The notes below the pieces were generated by a model. That model did no database searches. It saw only the letters and a list, made by a program, of their open reading frames with translations, and was not told where the DNA came from. A stretch of DNA of 42,196 nucleotides from a virus, in the IMG/VR virus record IMGVR_UViG_3300028590_000042, positions 1 through 42,196 of that record. The stretch is one strand, 5' to 3'. Position numbers and translations under genes: made by a program. Positions 11,721-33,085 of the stretch are shown one piece after another. Each line of letters begins with the position of its first letter. The stretch's first letter is position 1.

Positions 11721-11860
11721 CTAGGAGCGACAACCCGAACTGCGTGAGAGTTAGATAGAGGCAAGTTCACCCTTGGCCTGGGAAATCTACACCTGCAAAG
11801 CATTTGGGGGAATTCGGCCTACGGGCTTCACCCTAGTTTTTACAATTGGAGATTACTCTT

Positions 11861-12370
11861 ATGAAGAACCAGAAAGGTTTCTCGCTCATCGAGCTGCTCG
11901 TGGTCGTTATCGTTATTGCGATCATTGCAGCTATTGCAATTCCGTCGCTTCTCGCTTCACGTCGTGCAGCCAACGAAGGCTCCGCGATCTCGTCGCTCCG
12001 TATCTATCATAGTGCTCAGGCCACGTGGCACGCGACGACGGGTGCAACTACCTCCTACACAAACTCGCTGGGCCTCGGTACCGCTGGCTTGGTAGATGCC
12101 ACACTCGGAACAGCGAACCCTACGAAGAGTGGTTACGCGTTTATTGTTGCCCCGACGGCTGCAGGGACTAATCCTGCTACCTACTGTGCGGCGGCGGCAC
12201 CGACCAGCATCACCTCCCCGACGCAGACGGGTACCCGTGAGTTCGGTGTTGGTTCGGCCAACGGCGGTCAGATAGTAGCCGCGACGGCGACATCAACTAC
12301 GGCCGGAGGCGGTGCTGTGACATGTGCGGCGGGTGTCCTTGGAGGAACCGGCGTCAACATCGGCAACTAG
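11861..12370 (+). CDS. Type IV prepilin (major pilin-like)
   Basis: The 169-residue product begins MKNQKG|FSLIELLVVV, a perfect prepilin leader: Gly at -1, Phe at +1 and Glu at +5, followed by the long hydrophobic alpha-1 helix ending in IPSLL. A prepilin peptidase would cut after Gly6. The rest is Ala/Thr/Gly-rich, with two Cys (TYCAA near residue 106 and VTCAA near 157) that could form the D-region disulphide. The start at 11861 is chosen because it gives the classic leader and has a GGAG 9 bases upstream. The gene has its own promoter and terminator, is not part of the virion operon, and looks like captured host cargo. The head-on-helix layout is like pilins of Acidobacteriota. Confidence 0.95.
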   Translation: MKNQKGFSLIELLVVVIVIAIIAAIAIPSLLASRRAANEGSAISSLRIYHSAQATWHATTGATTSYTNSLGLGTAGLVDATLGTANPTKSGYAFIVAPTAAGTNPATYCAAAAPTSITSPTQTGTREFGVGSANGGQIVAATATSTTAGGGAVTCAAGVLGGTGVNIGN

Positions 12371-12559: not shown

Positions 12560-12583
12560 CAAAGAGTTTTGAGGTTCAGCGTT

Positions 12584-13003
12584 ATGGACTCTCAAGATGG
12601 CAAAGGATTGCTGGGGCTGCTGTTTGCGATGCTGATCGTTTTTCTGGTCGCATGGGTCGCAACGCCCTGGCTGCAGCGGGTAGGCAAATTGCTGCCGGAC
12701 GAGACGGCCGCGATCAACACGCTGCGGGCGATATACACCGCCCAACAAGATCAGTATGGGGCAAGCCGGATGTACGGAAGCCTCGGTAAATTGACAAATT
12801 CGAAGCTGATGAACCGGCCGCAAGACGATTTTAAGTCGGGCGGGTATGTGTTCTCGCACTCGGTGAGCGGTCGGGGGAGTACGTGGTGTGCTACCGCCGT
12901 GCCCGAGTCAGGCAAGCCGGGCAGGAGCTTTGCCATCGATGAAAGCGGAACGGTACAGGAAAAACCGCTCCGCTGCGTGAATGGAAGATTGATATCACTT
13001 TGA
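12584..13003 (+). CDS. Pilin-like (minor pilin) protein
   Basis: The 139-residue product has a short head ending in GKG, one hydrophobic helix (LLGLLFAMLIVFLVAWVA) and a globular part with the features of Acidobacteriota pilin-like proteins: a helix with NTLRAIYTAQ, a KSGGYVF-type strand, TWCA and LRCV cysteines, and a GRSFAIDESGTV strand. Glu+5 is missing, as in some tip minor pilins. The ATG at 12584 has GAGG nine bases before it; an in-frame TTG at 12569 is the alternative. It may cap or alter pili made from host or phage pilin. Confidence 0.72.
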   Translation: MDSQDGKGLLGLLFAMLIVFLVAWVATPWLQRVGKLLPDETAAINTLRAIYTAQQDQYGASRMYGSLGKLTNSKLMNRPQDDFKSGGYVFSHSVSGRGSTWCATAVPESGKPGRSFAIDESGTVQEKPLRCVNGRLISL

Positions 13004-13597: not shown

Positions 13598-13726
13598 ACT
13601 TTTTGGCAGGCTGGGGTAATGAAACGGGTAGGTTTTCGACCTTGGTAGACGGCAATGTCCGGGCGGTCGATTAGAGAACCTCAATAAACATCGAGGCTTA
13701 GTGAATGATGGGGTTTCGGCTTCCCG

Positions 13727-13771
13727 TTCGCAATGCCGAGGTCAGGGGTTCGATCCCCCTCATCTCCACCA
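13727..13771 (+). other. Putative attP core: 3' half of tRNA-Ala(CGC)
   Basis: The 45 bases read as the anticodon loop TTCGCAA (anticodon CGC), a 3' anticodon strand TGCCG, the variable loop AGGTC, a T-arm AGGGG-TTCGATC-CCCCT, the acceptor strand CATCTCC, discriminator A and CCA. This matches the 3' half of bacterial tRNA-Ala. The 5' half is absent: the sequence before 13727 does not form the D-arm or 5' acceptor. Phages that integrate in tRNA genes carry just such a 3' segment, and the integrase operon ends 18 bases away. Confidence 0.85.
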
Positions 13772-13788: not shown

Positions 13789-14304
13789 TCACTTTTCATC
13801 ATCAACCTCGCTGGAAAGATGAGAAATTGGCAGGCTCGCCCCGGACTCGGAAAGGGATTGGATGAATTTCACGTCCTTTTCCGAGAGTCGGAACCACTCG
13901 TCACGGATCCTGCTATCTTCGAACTTCTCGCACAATTCACGCTTCAGATCTTTTGGTTCCGGGCATGGGATTCGTGCGACTAGAAGAAGATCAAACGGAA
14001 TCCAGGTTCGTATCTCACGCAGACGTGTTATGAGCGAGTGCGAATAGCCGATCTTGTAGAAGCCCTCGACCTCAACCACAAAGACCTCTCCCGGATCGGA
14101 GCCCGTCAAGTAGCGGTCGGTCTTAGGCATGTCTTTGACTGAATCGGTCTTGAAGCCTTCAAGTATTTGGCTTCGCCAGCGAGCCTCGATTTTCGCAGCC
14201 TCGATCGGTGTGAAGTCCCGAGAAAGCCGCTTCTTGTAAAGGCGACCGAGCAACTCGAACTGAATGAATGGCCGCTTCGTTTGAGTATCGACGTAAATGC
14301 TCAC
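13789..14304 (-). CDS. GIY-YIG (T5orf172/MUG113-like) protein with an integrase arm-binding domain
   Basis: The 171 residues form two parts. Residues 1-50 are a close copy of the N-terminal arm-site-binding domain of the neighbouring integrase (FIQFELLGRLYKKRL here, YIQFERDGQLYKKRL there). Residues 73-145 have the layout of the GIY-YIG branch found in T5orf172/MUG113 proteins: a VFVVEV strand, FYKIGYS (the YIG part), Arg94/Arg96, Glu123/Glu126 and the EWFRL motif at 136-140. The first Tyr of the GIY motif is Phe75 or displaced, so activity is uncertain. The gene overlaps the integrase by four bases and is made from the same message. It may act at the phage arm sites: as a recombination cofactor, as a nuclease against related att DNA, or as a competitor of integrase. 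Confidence 0.82.
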   Translation of the reverse strand: MSIYVDTQTKRPFIQFELLGRLYKKRLSRDFTPIEAAKIEARWRSQILEGFKTDSVKDMPKTDRYLTGSDPGEVFVVEVEGFYKIGYSHSLITRLREIRTWIPFDLLLVARIPCPEPKDLKRELCEKFEDSRIRDEWFRLSEKDVKFIQSLSESGASLPISHLSSEVDDEK

Positions 14305-15374
14305 GCTGCCCTCCTCGACTGAAAGTCTCCGAGATCTATAACGTTGTCAGCGGGAACCATATTTTCCAGGCTCAGAATGGCCTTTCTTTTGATCTCCGTT
14401 CCTCGCTTATAACGATGAACGCAACGCAGTCCGACGTGGCCTAAGAGGTCCGCGATCGTCTTGTCGTCGAATCCATTCTCATGAAGGCGAGTGCCGAAGG
14501 TCCGGCGCAGATCGAAGATCGTGAGCTTCAATCCGAACTTCGATGAGGCGTTCCGGATCGAGTTATTGATCGACGTGAGCTTGCGGCCGGTCCGATAGCT
14601 CGGGAAGAAGAGATCGCCTTCATCATCCAGCCGCGAGAGCAGCATCGTCCGCAGCCTCGGGAGAAGCGGGATGCTGACGCGCCGTTTCGTCTTACCCTGG
14701 ACGAGGAATATCTCGTCAGTGCGGAAGTCGACCTGGTCCTTGCTGAGCCCGAAGAGATCCGTCTGCCTCAAGCCGGTGTAAAGGGCCGTCGTGCATAGAT
14801 CACGCTGCAGCTTGTACATCGACCAGAGGAAATCTTCCTCGTACTCGAGCGGAAGGATCGCATTCTGGACGTTGTCGAACTTGGGCATATCGACGCGTGA
14901 GACGGGATTGTAACGCACCAGATCGTTCTTCAACGCAAGGCTGAAGATCTTCGAGATGATAGACATCTCTCGATGGATCGTCGCCGGCTTGCGGACCGTG
15001 CCGTGATGAGTTCGCGTCTCCATCCTCAGCTGCTTGAACTGCTCGACATCAGCAGGCTTGATCTCGTCGAGCGCCCGATTTCCGAAGAACGGCATGGCCG
15101 CCTTACAGATCACGATCGCTTTCTCGAGAGCCTGCTCGGAGTTATTCGCCTTGACGTAGGGGAAATAGACGTCTTCGACGAATCGCTCCCACAGCACGGA
15201 TTCCTTTTCCTCGGGCAAGTGAGCGGCGAAAAAGATATCGTGCTTCCATTTCGTTTCCAGTACCTCGGCCTCTTTCCGGGTCGCCCCCTCGGGAAGCCTT
15301 TTCTTGTAAAGCTGACCGTCACGCTCGAACTGGATGTAGAGCCTGCCGGACCTGTTGTCGTGGTAACAAGGCAT
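14301..15374 (-). CDS. int: Tyrosine integrase
   Basis: The 357-residue site-specific recombinase joins attP to the host tRNA-Ala gene. Residues 1-55 form the arm-binding domain, about 60-165 the core-binding SAM-like domain, and about 170-340 the catalytic domain. Visible catalytic residues are Arg in ALYTGLRQTDL, Lys in GKTKRR, Arg in FDLRRTF, His in LLGHVG and Tyr in CVHRYKRG. The usual His of the HxxR box is Phe, a tolerated but uncommon change. It lies next to the putative attP with excisionase-like gene upstream. Confidence 0.95.
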   Translation of the reverse strand: MPCYHDNRSGRLYIQFERDGQLYKKRLPEGATRKEAEVLETKWKHDIFFAAHLPEEKESVLWERFVEDVYFPYVKANNSEQALEKAIVICKAAMPFFGNRALDEIKPADVEQFKQLRMETRTHHGTVRKPATIHREMSIISKIFSLALKNDLVRYNPVSRVDMPKFDNVQNAILPLEYEEDFLWSMYKLQRDLCTTALYTGLRQTDLFGLSKDQVDFRTDEIFLVQGKTKRRVSIPLLPRLRTMLLSRLDDEGDLFFPSYRTGRKLTSINNSIRNASSKFGLKLTIFDLRRTFGTRLHENGFDDKTIADLLGHVGLRCVHRYKRGTEIKRKAILSLENMVPADNVIDLGDFQSRRAA

Positions 15375-15418: not shown

Positions 15419-15685
15419 TTAGTTGCCGGAGAGGATCCCTGCAAACTCAGAGCGTTGGACCGGTGCAGGGACGGGAACTCGTCGCTTTCTGAGCGGTACC
15501 GGATCGACGGCGGCATCGGCCGTTGAGCTCTCGAGGAATGCGATCACCTTCTCGGGATCGAACCGCATCTTCGTACCGACAATGATGTGCGGGACATTTG
15601 TCTTCTTCGTCATTCTGATGAGCGTCCTGCCGCTGCAGCCCAGCAGCTTGGCCATCTCGTCAGCTGTGAGATATTTCTTGGTCAT
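15419..15685 (-). CDS. xis: Excisionase-like HTH protein
   Basis: This 88-residue protein begins with a MerR/excisionase-type winged HTH (YLTADEMAKLLGCSGRTLIRM, followed by a VPHIIVGTKMRFDPEKVIAFLE wing and helix). The C-terminal 35 residues are Pro/Arg-rich and probably disordered. It starts in the stop of the gene before it and lies 44 bases before integrase. Such proteins bend att DNA and direct excision; a plain transcription regulator is the alternative. Confidence 0.8.
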   Translation of the reverse strand: MTKKYLTADEMAKLLGCSGRTLIRMTKKTNVPHIIVGTKMRFDPEKVIAFLESSTADAAVDPVPLRKRRVPVPAPVQRSEFAGILSGN

Positions 15686-16898: not shown

Positions 16899-17471
16899 TC
16901 ACAGCCTGTTCAGTCTAACAATTAGCTCGTAAGTCTCTTTAGTGATTTTGCGATAGTATTCTTCGTGTTTTGCGCTGTGCCAAGCGGAGTAGGTTTTATC
17001 AGGGTCATCCGTCAGCGTTTGCTTATAGATCACGACGTTGAGCAGAAGCTCGTCGCACTTGGCGTCGAATTGTTGATAGCCTAGGCATTCCAGTAGGTCT
17101 TTTGTCGCGGTCAGATTGTTAGAGATGAGACGCAAAAGCGGTATGATGCGGTCTTTGATCGACCCGCTTGGTAGCTGGGACAATTGACAGGTCCGGAATT
17201 CAGTCTTGATCTCCCGCAGGCATCGAAGGGAATCGGTCAACGACCCGATGAGCATGTCCTGTTCAACCCGGGAACTCGCGACGCTCTTTTGAAAGGTGCG
17301 TTGTAGAATGAGCCCAATTACGAGTGCAGAGAAAAGCTCGACGACTGAGTCCCATCCGAGCTTATTATCCCATTCAGGCACGACAGCCGAGCCGGCCAAA
17401 GCGCGCGAAATCACTATTCCCAAAATGAGTCCCGCGACGAAGAAGAGTACGATTTTCAGAGATTCCCTCAT
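16899..17471 (-). CDS. Two-helix membrane protein, third gene of the STAS/GHKL operon
   Basis: The 190-residue product has two hydrophobic segments (about 7-30, IVLFFVAGLILGIVI, and about 42-60, VVELFSALVIGLIL) and then about 130 helical, soluble residues. Both ends are probably cytoplasmic. The ATG overlaps the stop of the DUF4325 gene by four bases, so the two are translationally coupled. In defence-like modules such proteins often act as membrane effectors; here this is an inference from context. No enzyme motif is visible. Confidence 0.72.
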   Translation of the reverse strand: MRESLKIVLFFVAGLILGIVISRALAGSAVVPEWDNKLGWDSVVELFSALVIGLILQRTFQKSVASSRVEQDMLIGSLTDSLRCLREIKTEFRTCQLSQLPSGSIKDRIIPLLRLISNNLTATKDLLECLGYQQFDAKCDELLLNVVIYKQTLTDDPDKTYSAWHSAKHEEYYRKITKETYELIVRLNRL

Positions 17472-17809
17472 CGAGAGCTCTGTCGCATGTAAATCTTGAT
17501 TTCTGTTTCGAGATAGGGCTCGTCTGTAGTGATCAGGACCAATGAGGCAACGACGCGGTCGTAACCGAACTCTCTGCCGAGTTCGCCGAAAGATCCATCC
17601 AGAAACGCCGTGCTGTAGCCCTCCGTGCCATCGAGATCGACAACTAGTTTCTGTTTAGCTTTTTCAGCGGCGAGGAACTGAGGTTTCAGCAGTGTCTCGA
17701 GAAACTCTTGACCAGATTTTTGGCCTTGCCACTCGTAACGCGGTCCAGGAGTTTTAGCGAACTGCTTCGAAATGGAAATTGTTAGTGGTGTGCTCACGGT
17801 TCCAACCAT
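17468..17809 (-). CDS. STAS-like DUF4325 protein
   Basis: The 113-residue product matches the STAS-like DUF4325 pattern: an N-terminal strand, FAKTPGPRYEWQGQKSG at about 18-33, and the core VVDLDGTEGYSTAFLDGSFG at 56-75. STAS domains are partners of GHKL kinases in sigma-factor partner switching, and the preceding gene is a GHKL ATPase whose stop overlaps this start (TGATG). Ser66/Thr67 are candidates for phosphorylation. A GTG one codon earlier is an alternative start. Confidence 0.82.
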   Translation of the reverse strand: MVGTVSTPLTISISKQFAKTPGPRYEWQGQKSGQEFLETLLKPQFLAAEKAKQKLVVDLDGTEGYSTAFLDGSFGELGREFGYDRVVASLVLITTDEPYLETEIKIYMRQSSR

Positions 17810-18822
17810 CACGGTTTTCGCACCTCCCAGTAGAAAAATGTTCCTCGAAAAGGCTTGGGAAGCTCTCGATACAATCCCTGATCAAAATCAATATATACGT
17901 TATTCGTGATTACAATCAATGCCGAAAATTGACCGCGTGATCGGGCTCTGAAGATAGCCGGCAGACCGTTGCCGCGATTTGAGAGTCCGGTGCTGGATAG
18001 AACCGCGCCCTCGAAGACCGCCTTGAGAAGATCCGGGTTGGTCTGGTATTTTTTGAGAAGTTTCAATTGATTGAGCCAGTTAATTTTAAGATGTTCCGCT
18101 ATTCCCACTCCGTTATCAAGCACACTGAAATAGGCTACCTTCGGATTACCTTCACAAAATACGGTCGCCCACCACGCCTCATGAAGTTTGCGATCCCTTT
18201 TCCCACTGGCATGAAAGGTCGTATTGTCCACGCACTCTGACAAGATTCGTTGGACGTCCCGAAGTTGCTTCTTGCGTCCGAAGACCTCTTTTGTTGCAAA
18301 TGCAATTAGCTCATTAGCCTTACTCGTATCGGCCTCCAAGCTCCATTTATTCCGAATCCGCCCGTGTTTCGCTGGCACTACGTCTTGTAAGCCGGCAAAC
18401 TGTTCCCGAATCCCCGATTCTCGCAGTCGGGCCGCTACTTTCGAGCTCTCCTCCGGAAGTTTGACGAATGCTTCGACGTTATTTGCAACGCGAGGGTCCT
18501 GAATGACCGAAAGCATCGCTATAAGCGCGTCGTTGGTTATCTCCACCACCTCGCTAAGGTCAACCAAAACAGATTGTTTAAGATCTAATGCCACCCGCAG
18601 TCGATCCAAGAATATGATCATGCCTTCGGTGTTGTTGATGAAAGAAAAGTTCGGCGGGGCCGGAATCGCGAGGCTTCGGGATCGGACGAGCTTTTCTTTT
18701 GTTTTTAGCCGGCCTTTTCGAAAGGTCGATTCGCGGCGCTTACGGTGGTTTAGGTAGAGGTATCTTCTATGTGCCCGTTCCTGGCTCTTTCTATACCGTG
18801 GGAAATTGCGGATCTTTCGCAT
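17809..18822 (-). CDS. STAS-GHKL ATPase (HATPase) protein
   Basis: The 337-residue product has a basic N-terminus (1-50), a STAS-like region (about 65-130, with VLVDLSEVVEITNDALIAM) and a C-terminal GHKL ATP-binding domain. The N box is ILSECVDNTTFH (Glu196, Asn200, His204), the G1 box DNGVGI (236-241) and the G2 box RGNGL (283-287). There is no histidine-kinase dimerisation domain. It starts directly after the stop of the 67-residue gene and is coupled to the DUF4325 gene. The family resembles anti-sigma or partner-switch kinases, or ATPases of mobile-element defence modules. The substrate is unknown. Confidence 0.85.
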   Translation of the reverse strand: MRKIRNFPRYRKSQERAHRRYLYLNHRKRRESTFRKGRLKTKEKLVRSRSLAIPAPPNFSFINNTEGMIIFLDRLRVALDLKQSVLVDLSEVVEITNDALIAMLSVIQDPRVANNVEAFVKLPEESSKVAARLRESGIREQFAGLQDVVPAKHGRIRNKWSLEADTSKANELIAFATKEVFGRKKQLRDVQRILSECVDNTTFHASGKRDRKLHEAWWATVFCEGNPKVAYFSVLDNGVGIAEHLKINWLNQLKLLKKYQTNPDLLKAVFEGAVLSSTGLSNRGNGLPAIFRARSRGQFSALIVITNNVYIDFDQGLYRELPKPFRGTFFYWEVRKP

Positions 18823-32683: not shown

Positions 32684-33085
32684 ATGTTGAAACTTGTCTG
32701 CGTTGATGATGACAAGGATGTCTCGGAGATGATGAAGATCGTCGGAGAACAGGAGCGGGTTTGGACTATGAGCTTCACGAACGGAGCTGAGGCTTTGCCG
32801 TTCCTTGAAGAGAACCAGGTCGACGTAGTTCTCCTTGATCTCGCAATGCCGGTGCTTGACGGTCTGACCGTCGCCGAAGAGATCAGGCTCAATGAGTCGA
32901 ACAACCCTGGCCGGAAGCGTGTGAAGATCGCCTTCCTTACAGGCTGGCCGATAAGCGAGACGATCCATCGAGTGGCCGAACGGATCGGCACGGAAGCCAT
33001 TTTCACGAAACCGATGGACCCAAACGAAACCATCGCGAAGATCAAAAGCTGGTTCAGCGCCGCAAAGATACGGAATGCTGTTTAG
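32684..33085 (+). CDS. Stand-alone response-regulator receiver (CheY-like)
   Basis: The 133-residue product is a complete receiver domain: acidic pocket Asp8-Asp9, phospho-acceptor Asp52 in LLDLAMPVLDG, Thr86 in FLTGW and Lys109-Pro110 in FTKPMD. There is no output domain and no kinase gene nearby. AGGGGG gives a strong ribosome site. A phage receiver could draw phosphate from a host kinase or bind a host motility/pilus target; its place between lysis and packaging genes implies late expression. Confidence 0.9.
   Translation: MLKLVCVDDDKDVSEMMKIVGEQERVWTMSFTNGAEALPFLEENQVDVVLLDLAMPVLDGLTVAEEIRLNESNNPGRKRVKIAFLTGWPISETIHRVAERIGTEAIFTKPMDPNETIAKIKSWFSAAKIRNAV

Follow-up and report, generated by a model that had tools for sequence, protein, structure and literature searches.

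A phage gene joining an integrase-type arm-binding domain to a GIY-YIG domain without its catalytic residues

Arm-binding domains are regulatory parts of integrases. What would such a domain do when it is encoded apart from the integrase, joined to a GIY-YIG domain, in a gene that lies between the integrase gene (int) and the attachment site of the same phage? The stretch of DNA in which this arrangement occurs (the window), 42196 bases long, is a single virus record that covers a complete, circular phage; its ends carry a 135-bp direct terminal repeat of 99% identity and the window is thus one phage genome. Relatives of its integrase (Int) were found in Acidobacteriota genomes, so the host is probably a member of this phylum of soil-type bacteria. 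Here we describe the homology of the N-terminal domain of the two-domain protein (the chimera), the coupling of its gene to int, the core of the attachment site, the conserved candidate arm sites on its flanks and the loss of catalytic residues from the GIY-YIG domain, from which we infer DNA binding without cleavage and an effect on Int.

A two-domain gene overlapping int

The int and GIY-YIG ORFs were found where the sequence-only reading had placed them, overlapping by four bases and adjoining attP, whose tRNA-Ala core is itself identified (Table 1). The shared bases are GTGA, and GGAGG lies 5 nt ahead of the GTG start of the chimera; this overlap and Shine–Dalgarno sequence suggest that the chimera is translated together with Int. 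At its other end, the gene stops 17 bases away from the tRNA-Ala(CGC) attP core. AlphaFold2 predicts, with modest confidence (pLDDT 65), a β-β-β-α N terminus leading through a disordered linker to a GIY-YIG layout.

Table 1 Features of the int–attP locus (coordinates in the window)
Feature	Coordinates	Strand	Details or basis
Chimeric gene, arm-binding domain + GIY-YIG (MUG113/T5orf172)	13789..14304	-	171 aa, GTG start
Arm-binding-like domain of chimera, residues 1-50	14155..14304	-	BLASTP, profile, predicted β-β-β-α
GIY-YIG domain of chimera, residues 72-152	13849..14091	-	Pfam, alignment, AlphaFold2
Codon AAG (K121), catalytic Glu position (I-TevI E75/Odn E180 equivalent)	13942..13944	-	
Tyrosine integrase, 357 aa	14301..15374	-	PF00589 1.7e-18; phrog_1 9e-43
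Arm-binding domain of integrase, residues 1-50	15225..15374	-	AlphaFold2, profile
Excisionase-like HTH gene, upstream of int	15419..15685	-	TIGR01764 8e-10; HTH_17 3.5e-8
attP core, 3' half of tRNA-Ala(CGC), 45 nt	13727..13771	+	Relatives' junctions, ARAGORN
Candidate arm-type site CTGCCA, int side of core, within 3' coding end of chimera gene	13828..13833	-	
Candidate arm-type site CTGCCA, far side of core	13604..13609	-	
Possible weaker arm-type site CTACCA, far side of core	13643..13648	-	

The resemblance of residues 1–50 to the integrase N terminus, as first proposed, is supported by several comparisons. Residues 1–48 of the chimera align with residues 1–48 of Int without gaps at 44% identity (BLASTP, E = 2e-9), and in a search of the chimera against the whole of this phage the Int N terminus is the sole second match (E = 3.2e-7). 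A hidden Markov model of four integrase arm domains, built without the chimera sequence, finds the chimera among 4,120 ORFs at E = 1.4e-13, its next matches being more distant integrases (E = 7.7e-6 and weaker); the profile comparison that had been named as able to refute the match thus recovered it. Eleven of the 16 residues invariant across the arm domains of three integrases are kept, and the AlphaFold2 models of the chimera and Int N termini have, at modest confidence, the same β-β-β-α layout, the Int model being poor beyond this region. The domain matches no Pfam arm model, and a Foldseek search of the Protein Data Bank returned no significant match for either domain of the chimera; the solved arm-type domains 3jtz and 3rmp fit the chimera model at 2.3–2.5 Å with non-significant scores (E = 3.6–3.8). 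On these sequence comparisons, we assign the N-terminal domain to the arm domains of this integrase clade. Like the arm-binding domains of tyrosine integrases, the classes of which have been reviewed (PMC8138268), it is N-terminal and homologous to them, with a predicted β-β-β-α layout and candidate arm-type repeats flanking the core; in integrases the arm domain is attached to core-binding and catalytic domains, whereas here it is attached to a GIY-YIG domain.

The copied domain is no nearer to its own Int (39% identity over 51 residues) than the integrases are among themselves, sharing 21 of 50 residues with Int, 22 of 50 with the integrase of locus L104 and 20 of 50 with that of L003. At this protein identity, and with codon sharing at chance (10 of 19, expected 9.1), a recent duplication of the 5' end of int is ruled out; by the same comparison the domain would be either an old copy or an acquisition from another member of the clade, and its specificity may have changed.

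Across all the material searched, the two-domain fusion occurs only once. No second chimera was found in pattern scans of IMG/VR or GTDB 220, which detect close relatives only, nor among 396 genomes of the phylum, 162 of the class, and phage and plasmid records. The gene is absent from the int–att junctions of all six relatives (L003, L010, L011, L070, L104 and L105), in which no gene lies between int and the core, and it was thus added in the lineage of this phage. The sequence-only reading had regarded homologues lying mostly away from integrases as evidence against it. The GIY-YIG domain in general does behave in this way: MUG113 domains, present in 21 of 297 Acidobacteriota genomes, lie almost always away from integrases, and ten such proteins checked by Pfam have no arm domain. 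For the two-domain protein there are no homologues on which such a count could be made. A habitual placement of GIY-YIG genes beside integrases is ruled out, as among 66 integrase loci only the window (with its two sub-loci) and L014/L018 have one. In L014 (G271:C33, Acidobacteriota), a GIY-YIG gene at 1201–1785 follows, after some 450 bases, an ORF that on inspection by eye is similar to an integron-type integrase and is matched by the integrase profile; the GIY-YIG gene there may be a cassette. Two further candidates were rejected: a 169-aa GIY-YIG protein (L106) has no adjoining integrase, and the annotated 'integrase' beside a GIY-YIG gene in Mycolicibacterium phage phi1_186018 (L005, PP947710.1, 2800–3846) is unlike a tyrosine integrase and is likely to be misannotated, as is its GIY-YIG neighbour, labelled 'DnaD-like helicase loader'.

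Residues of the GIY-YIG domain

The assignment of residues 73–145 to the T5orf172/MUG113 type of GIY-YIG domain is upheld by Pfam, in which both models score above their cut-offs: MUG113 (PF13455) at 47.7 bits against 22.3 (E = 2.3e-12, residues 83–146) and T5orf172 (PF10544) at 26.4 bits against 20 (E = 1e-5). In keeping with this, Foldseek matches the chimera model to phage MUG113 proteins (E = 1e-4).

The GIY-YIG domain was aligned with others from Acidobacteriota, phages and one plasmid, to give 37 sequences in all. In the chimera, the catalytic Glu position, in the xE..LH..F helix, is occupied by K121, as compared with Glu in all 35 other aligned domains that have a residue there, and the motif Tyr position by F75, as compared with Tyr in 30 of 30 others. 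The usual His of the domain is replaced by Cys (C125). R94, the KIG motif (K84-I85-G86) and the EWF motif (E136-W137-F138) are kept, and on this alignment the losses are limited to the active site. In the related nuclease Odn of phage ICP1, the substitution E180A of the catalytic Glu leaves the protein unable to cleave in vitro and inactive in vivo (PMC8263062). Since Odn E180A is inert, the chimera, which has neither the Glu nor the Tyr, is predicted to lack nuclease activity, its GIY-YIG domain being nuclease-dead with the fold retained; a working nuclease is not supported. Codon 121 may contain a sequence error, as AAG is one transition from GAG; the loss of Tyr at F75 is independent of any such error.

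Attachment core and candidate arm sites

The core seen in the window also adjoins a 58%-identical integrase in L003 and L010, and is present in the remnant L011; in L010, L070, L104 and L105 the integrase gene borders on a full tRNA-Ala(CGC) (ARAGORN), such that five bacterial and one viral relative of the integrase are all found at tRNA-Ala(CGC). A tmRNA, an impression given by the CCA end, is ruled out as the att site by the sequence, which is that of tRNA-Ala(CGC).

Repeats sought around attP without reference to relatives did not exceed those in shuffled sequences. Comparison of the flanks with those of the relatives yields a common word on the strand of int, CTGCCA or its variant CTACCA. 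In the window, CTGCCA lies at −62 and +118 from the core; CTGCCA/CTACCA pairs are found at −66/−54 and +121/+132 in L003 and L011, at −66/−54 in L010 and at −66/−55 in L070, and L104 has the same tandem ahead of the core. Under a Markov model, CTGCCA would fall within 150 bp of the window core on both sides with P = 3e-4, and this layout flanking the core is unique to attP within the phage genome. The clear second half of the relatives' tandem arm sites is missing in the window, which has one clear CTGCCA per arm.

The integrase arm domains of the clade are only 41–60% identical to one another and CTGCCA is nevertheless conserved, so that the arm domain of the chimera, as judged from sequence, plausibly reads the same word. 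No CTGCCA was found near the start of the xis-int operon, which leaves attP as the obvious target. Delivery of the protein to the arm sites, as the sequence-only reading had suggested, would follow naturally from an N-terminal domain that is truly of the integrase family; that membership stands, and candidate CTGCCA sites are present at attP in the window and in all relatives tested.

The gene upstream of int in the window encodes an excise-type helix–turn–helix (HTH) protein, and a gene resembling it precedes int in L003, L010 and L070, where the upstream gene was read; Pfam and a further domain search gave no excise-type HTH match in the chimera itself. As separate observations on the integrases, box II reads FDLRR, RDLRR or RALRR in those of the window, L003 and L070, with LGH and the Tyr region kept and the usual first His of HxLR apparently missing from this clade. 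In L003 (1042–2274), L010 and L104, the int frame reaches into or across the att core, and the C-terminal tail of Int would thus change upon integration.

Proposed role at the arm sites

We propose, at what we judge to be even chances, that a non-cutting chimera made together with Int occupies the arm sites and alters intasome assembly at its own attP and possibly at those of related phages. The protein would bind the arm sites, with their CTGCCA word, on either side of the attP core and leave them uncut, its targets being the phage's own arm sites and those of related phages at tRNA-Ala(CGC). Occupancy of these sites would change which intasome can form, such that Int-driven integration and excision would be lowered or steered and, possibly, related phages would be kept from integrating at this tRNA. 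Among known GIY-YIG proteins, I-TevI (cited in PMC10448857) is able to repress as a DNA-bound protein without cutting. I-TevI retains its catalytic residues and cuts when its site is within reach; the chimera would share the non-cutting, DNA-bound role, but the catalytic residues are present only in I-TevI.

The nearest known kind of protein is Odn (gp88) of ICP1, in which a T5orf172 nuclease is joined to RepA_N; this domain shares 42% identity with the RepA of a satellite, the origin of which Odn cuts (PMC8263062). Relatives of this RepA_N–T5orf172 type occur in E. coli phages (PMC8263062, PMC10448857). Both Odn and the chimera carry a T5orf172-family GIY-YIG domain behind a copied DNA-binding domain of a mobile element, at similar identity (42% in Odn and 44% in the chimera). 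In Odn, the copied domain is that of the satellite's replication initiator, whereas that of the chimera belongs with the integrase arm domains found in the phage's own clade; unlike Odn, the chimera is coupled to int at attP and has Lys where Odn requires its catalytic Glu. A more specific version of our proposal, which we hold as tentative and somewhat doubtful, is that of a nuclease-dead, Odn-like chimera for integration exclusion, through which rivals would be denied tRNA-Ala(CGC) by way of the shared arm sites, or its own Int tuned. The sequence-only reading knew of no described system of this form, and none was found in the literature searched.

An active weapon of the Odn type, in which the arm domain guides a working GIY-YIG nuclease to cut the attP of competing tRNA-Ala(CGC) phages, has a direct precedent in the cutting of a satellite origin by Odn (PMC8263062), and several relatives use the same att site. 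We nonetheless regard it as quite improbable: the chimera alone has lost the catalytic Glu and the motif Tyr, the first of which Odn cannot do without, and its own arm sites bear the same word as those of its rivals, so that self-cutting would be expected. With own and rival arm words alike, a cutter would put its carrier at risk, in keeping with the loss of catalytic residues; the suggestion of a weapon against related phages using the same att site is weakened on both counts. That the GIY-YIG domain has lost its catalytic residues, that the gene is a singleton missing from all integrase relatives and that its GC3 is below that of int (0.61 vs 0.75) would also suit an inactive, functionless remnant of a homing endonuclease, decaying near attP after a chance joining to an integrase N terminus. 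Like phage homing endonucleases of the T5orf172/MUG113 type, as described in a survey of phage T5orf172 genes (PMC10448857), the chimera is encoded by a small GIY-YIG gene in a gap that relatives lack and has a modular DNA-binding part; it differs from them in that the catalytic residues are gone and an arm domain takes the place of the usual Zn-finger. Zn-finger domains are reported in the survey for 200 of 229 phage T5orf172 genes, and the section consulted names no integrase arm domain (PMC10448857). The presence of the gene in the window and its absence from the same locus in relatives is a trait of homing endonucleases; the predicted effect of losing both Glu and Tyr speaks against cleavage of an empty allele by the chimera. 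Against mere decay stand the open frame with its good ribosome-binding site and translational coupling, the restriction of the GIY losses to the active site (KIG, Arg and EWF stay) and an arm domain that retains conserved positions despite its long-ago divergence, and we consider the remnant unlikely.

A positive role is also conceivable, in which the chimera is a recombination cofactor that acts as an architectural part of the intasome, for example substituting for the lost tandem halves of the arm sites or steering direction with the Xis-like protein. The presence of one clear CTGCCA in each arm, instead of the tandem pairs of the relatives, would fit this, as would the coupling of the gene to int and the position of the int-side arm site inside the chimera gene; set against it, relatives integrate at the same tRNA without a chimera and a separate excisionase-like gene is present, making a cofactor improbable.

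If a non-cutting chimera does occupy the arm sites, it would mark the first known case in which an integrase arm domain has been copied to serve as an effector of its own, and the combination of a free-standing arm domain with a disabled nuclease would constitute a new means of controlling or blocking site-specific integration. It would also bring to attachment sites the principle that Odn represents at replication origins, that of a copied mobile-element DNA-binding domain. The candidate arm sites make the proposal directly testable with short DNA probes.

Several other genes of the phage were noted. Next to attP, 11846–12370 (+) is a type IV pilin-like gene with an N-terminal methylation motif (Pfam, E = 1.1e-9), and 12569–13003 (+) is another, small gene whose product has a hydrophobic segment at its N terminus and is possibly prepilin-like; the pair may represent lysogenic-conversion or pilus-related cargo. 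At 17468–18822 (−), a DUF4325 STAS-like gene (Pfam) lies beside a 337-aa gene that has no Pfam match and whose product, on inspection by eye, is similar to a GHKL-type ATPase or a STAS protein; after this pair comes a small gene with a hydrophobic N terminus (16899–17471), and all three are cargo of the lysogeny region. A lone response-regulator receiver domain is encoded among the late genes at 32684–33085 (+) (Pfam, E = 9.7e-18).
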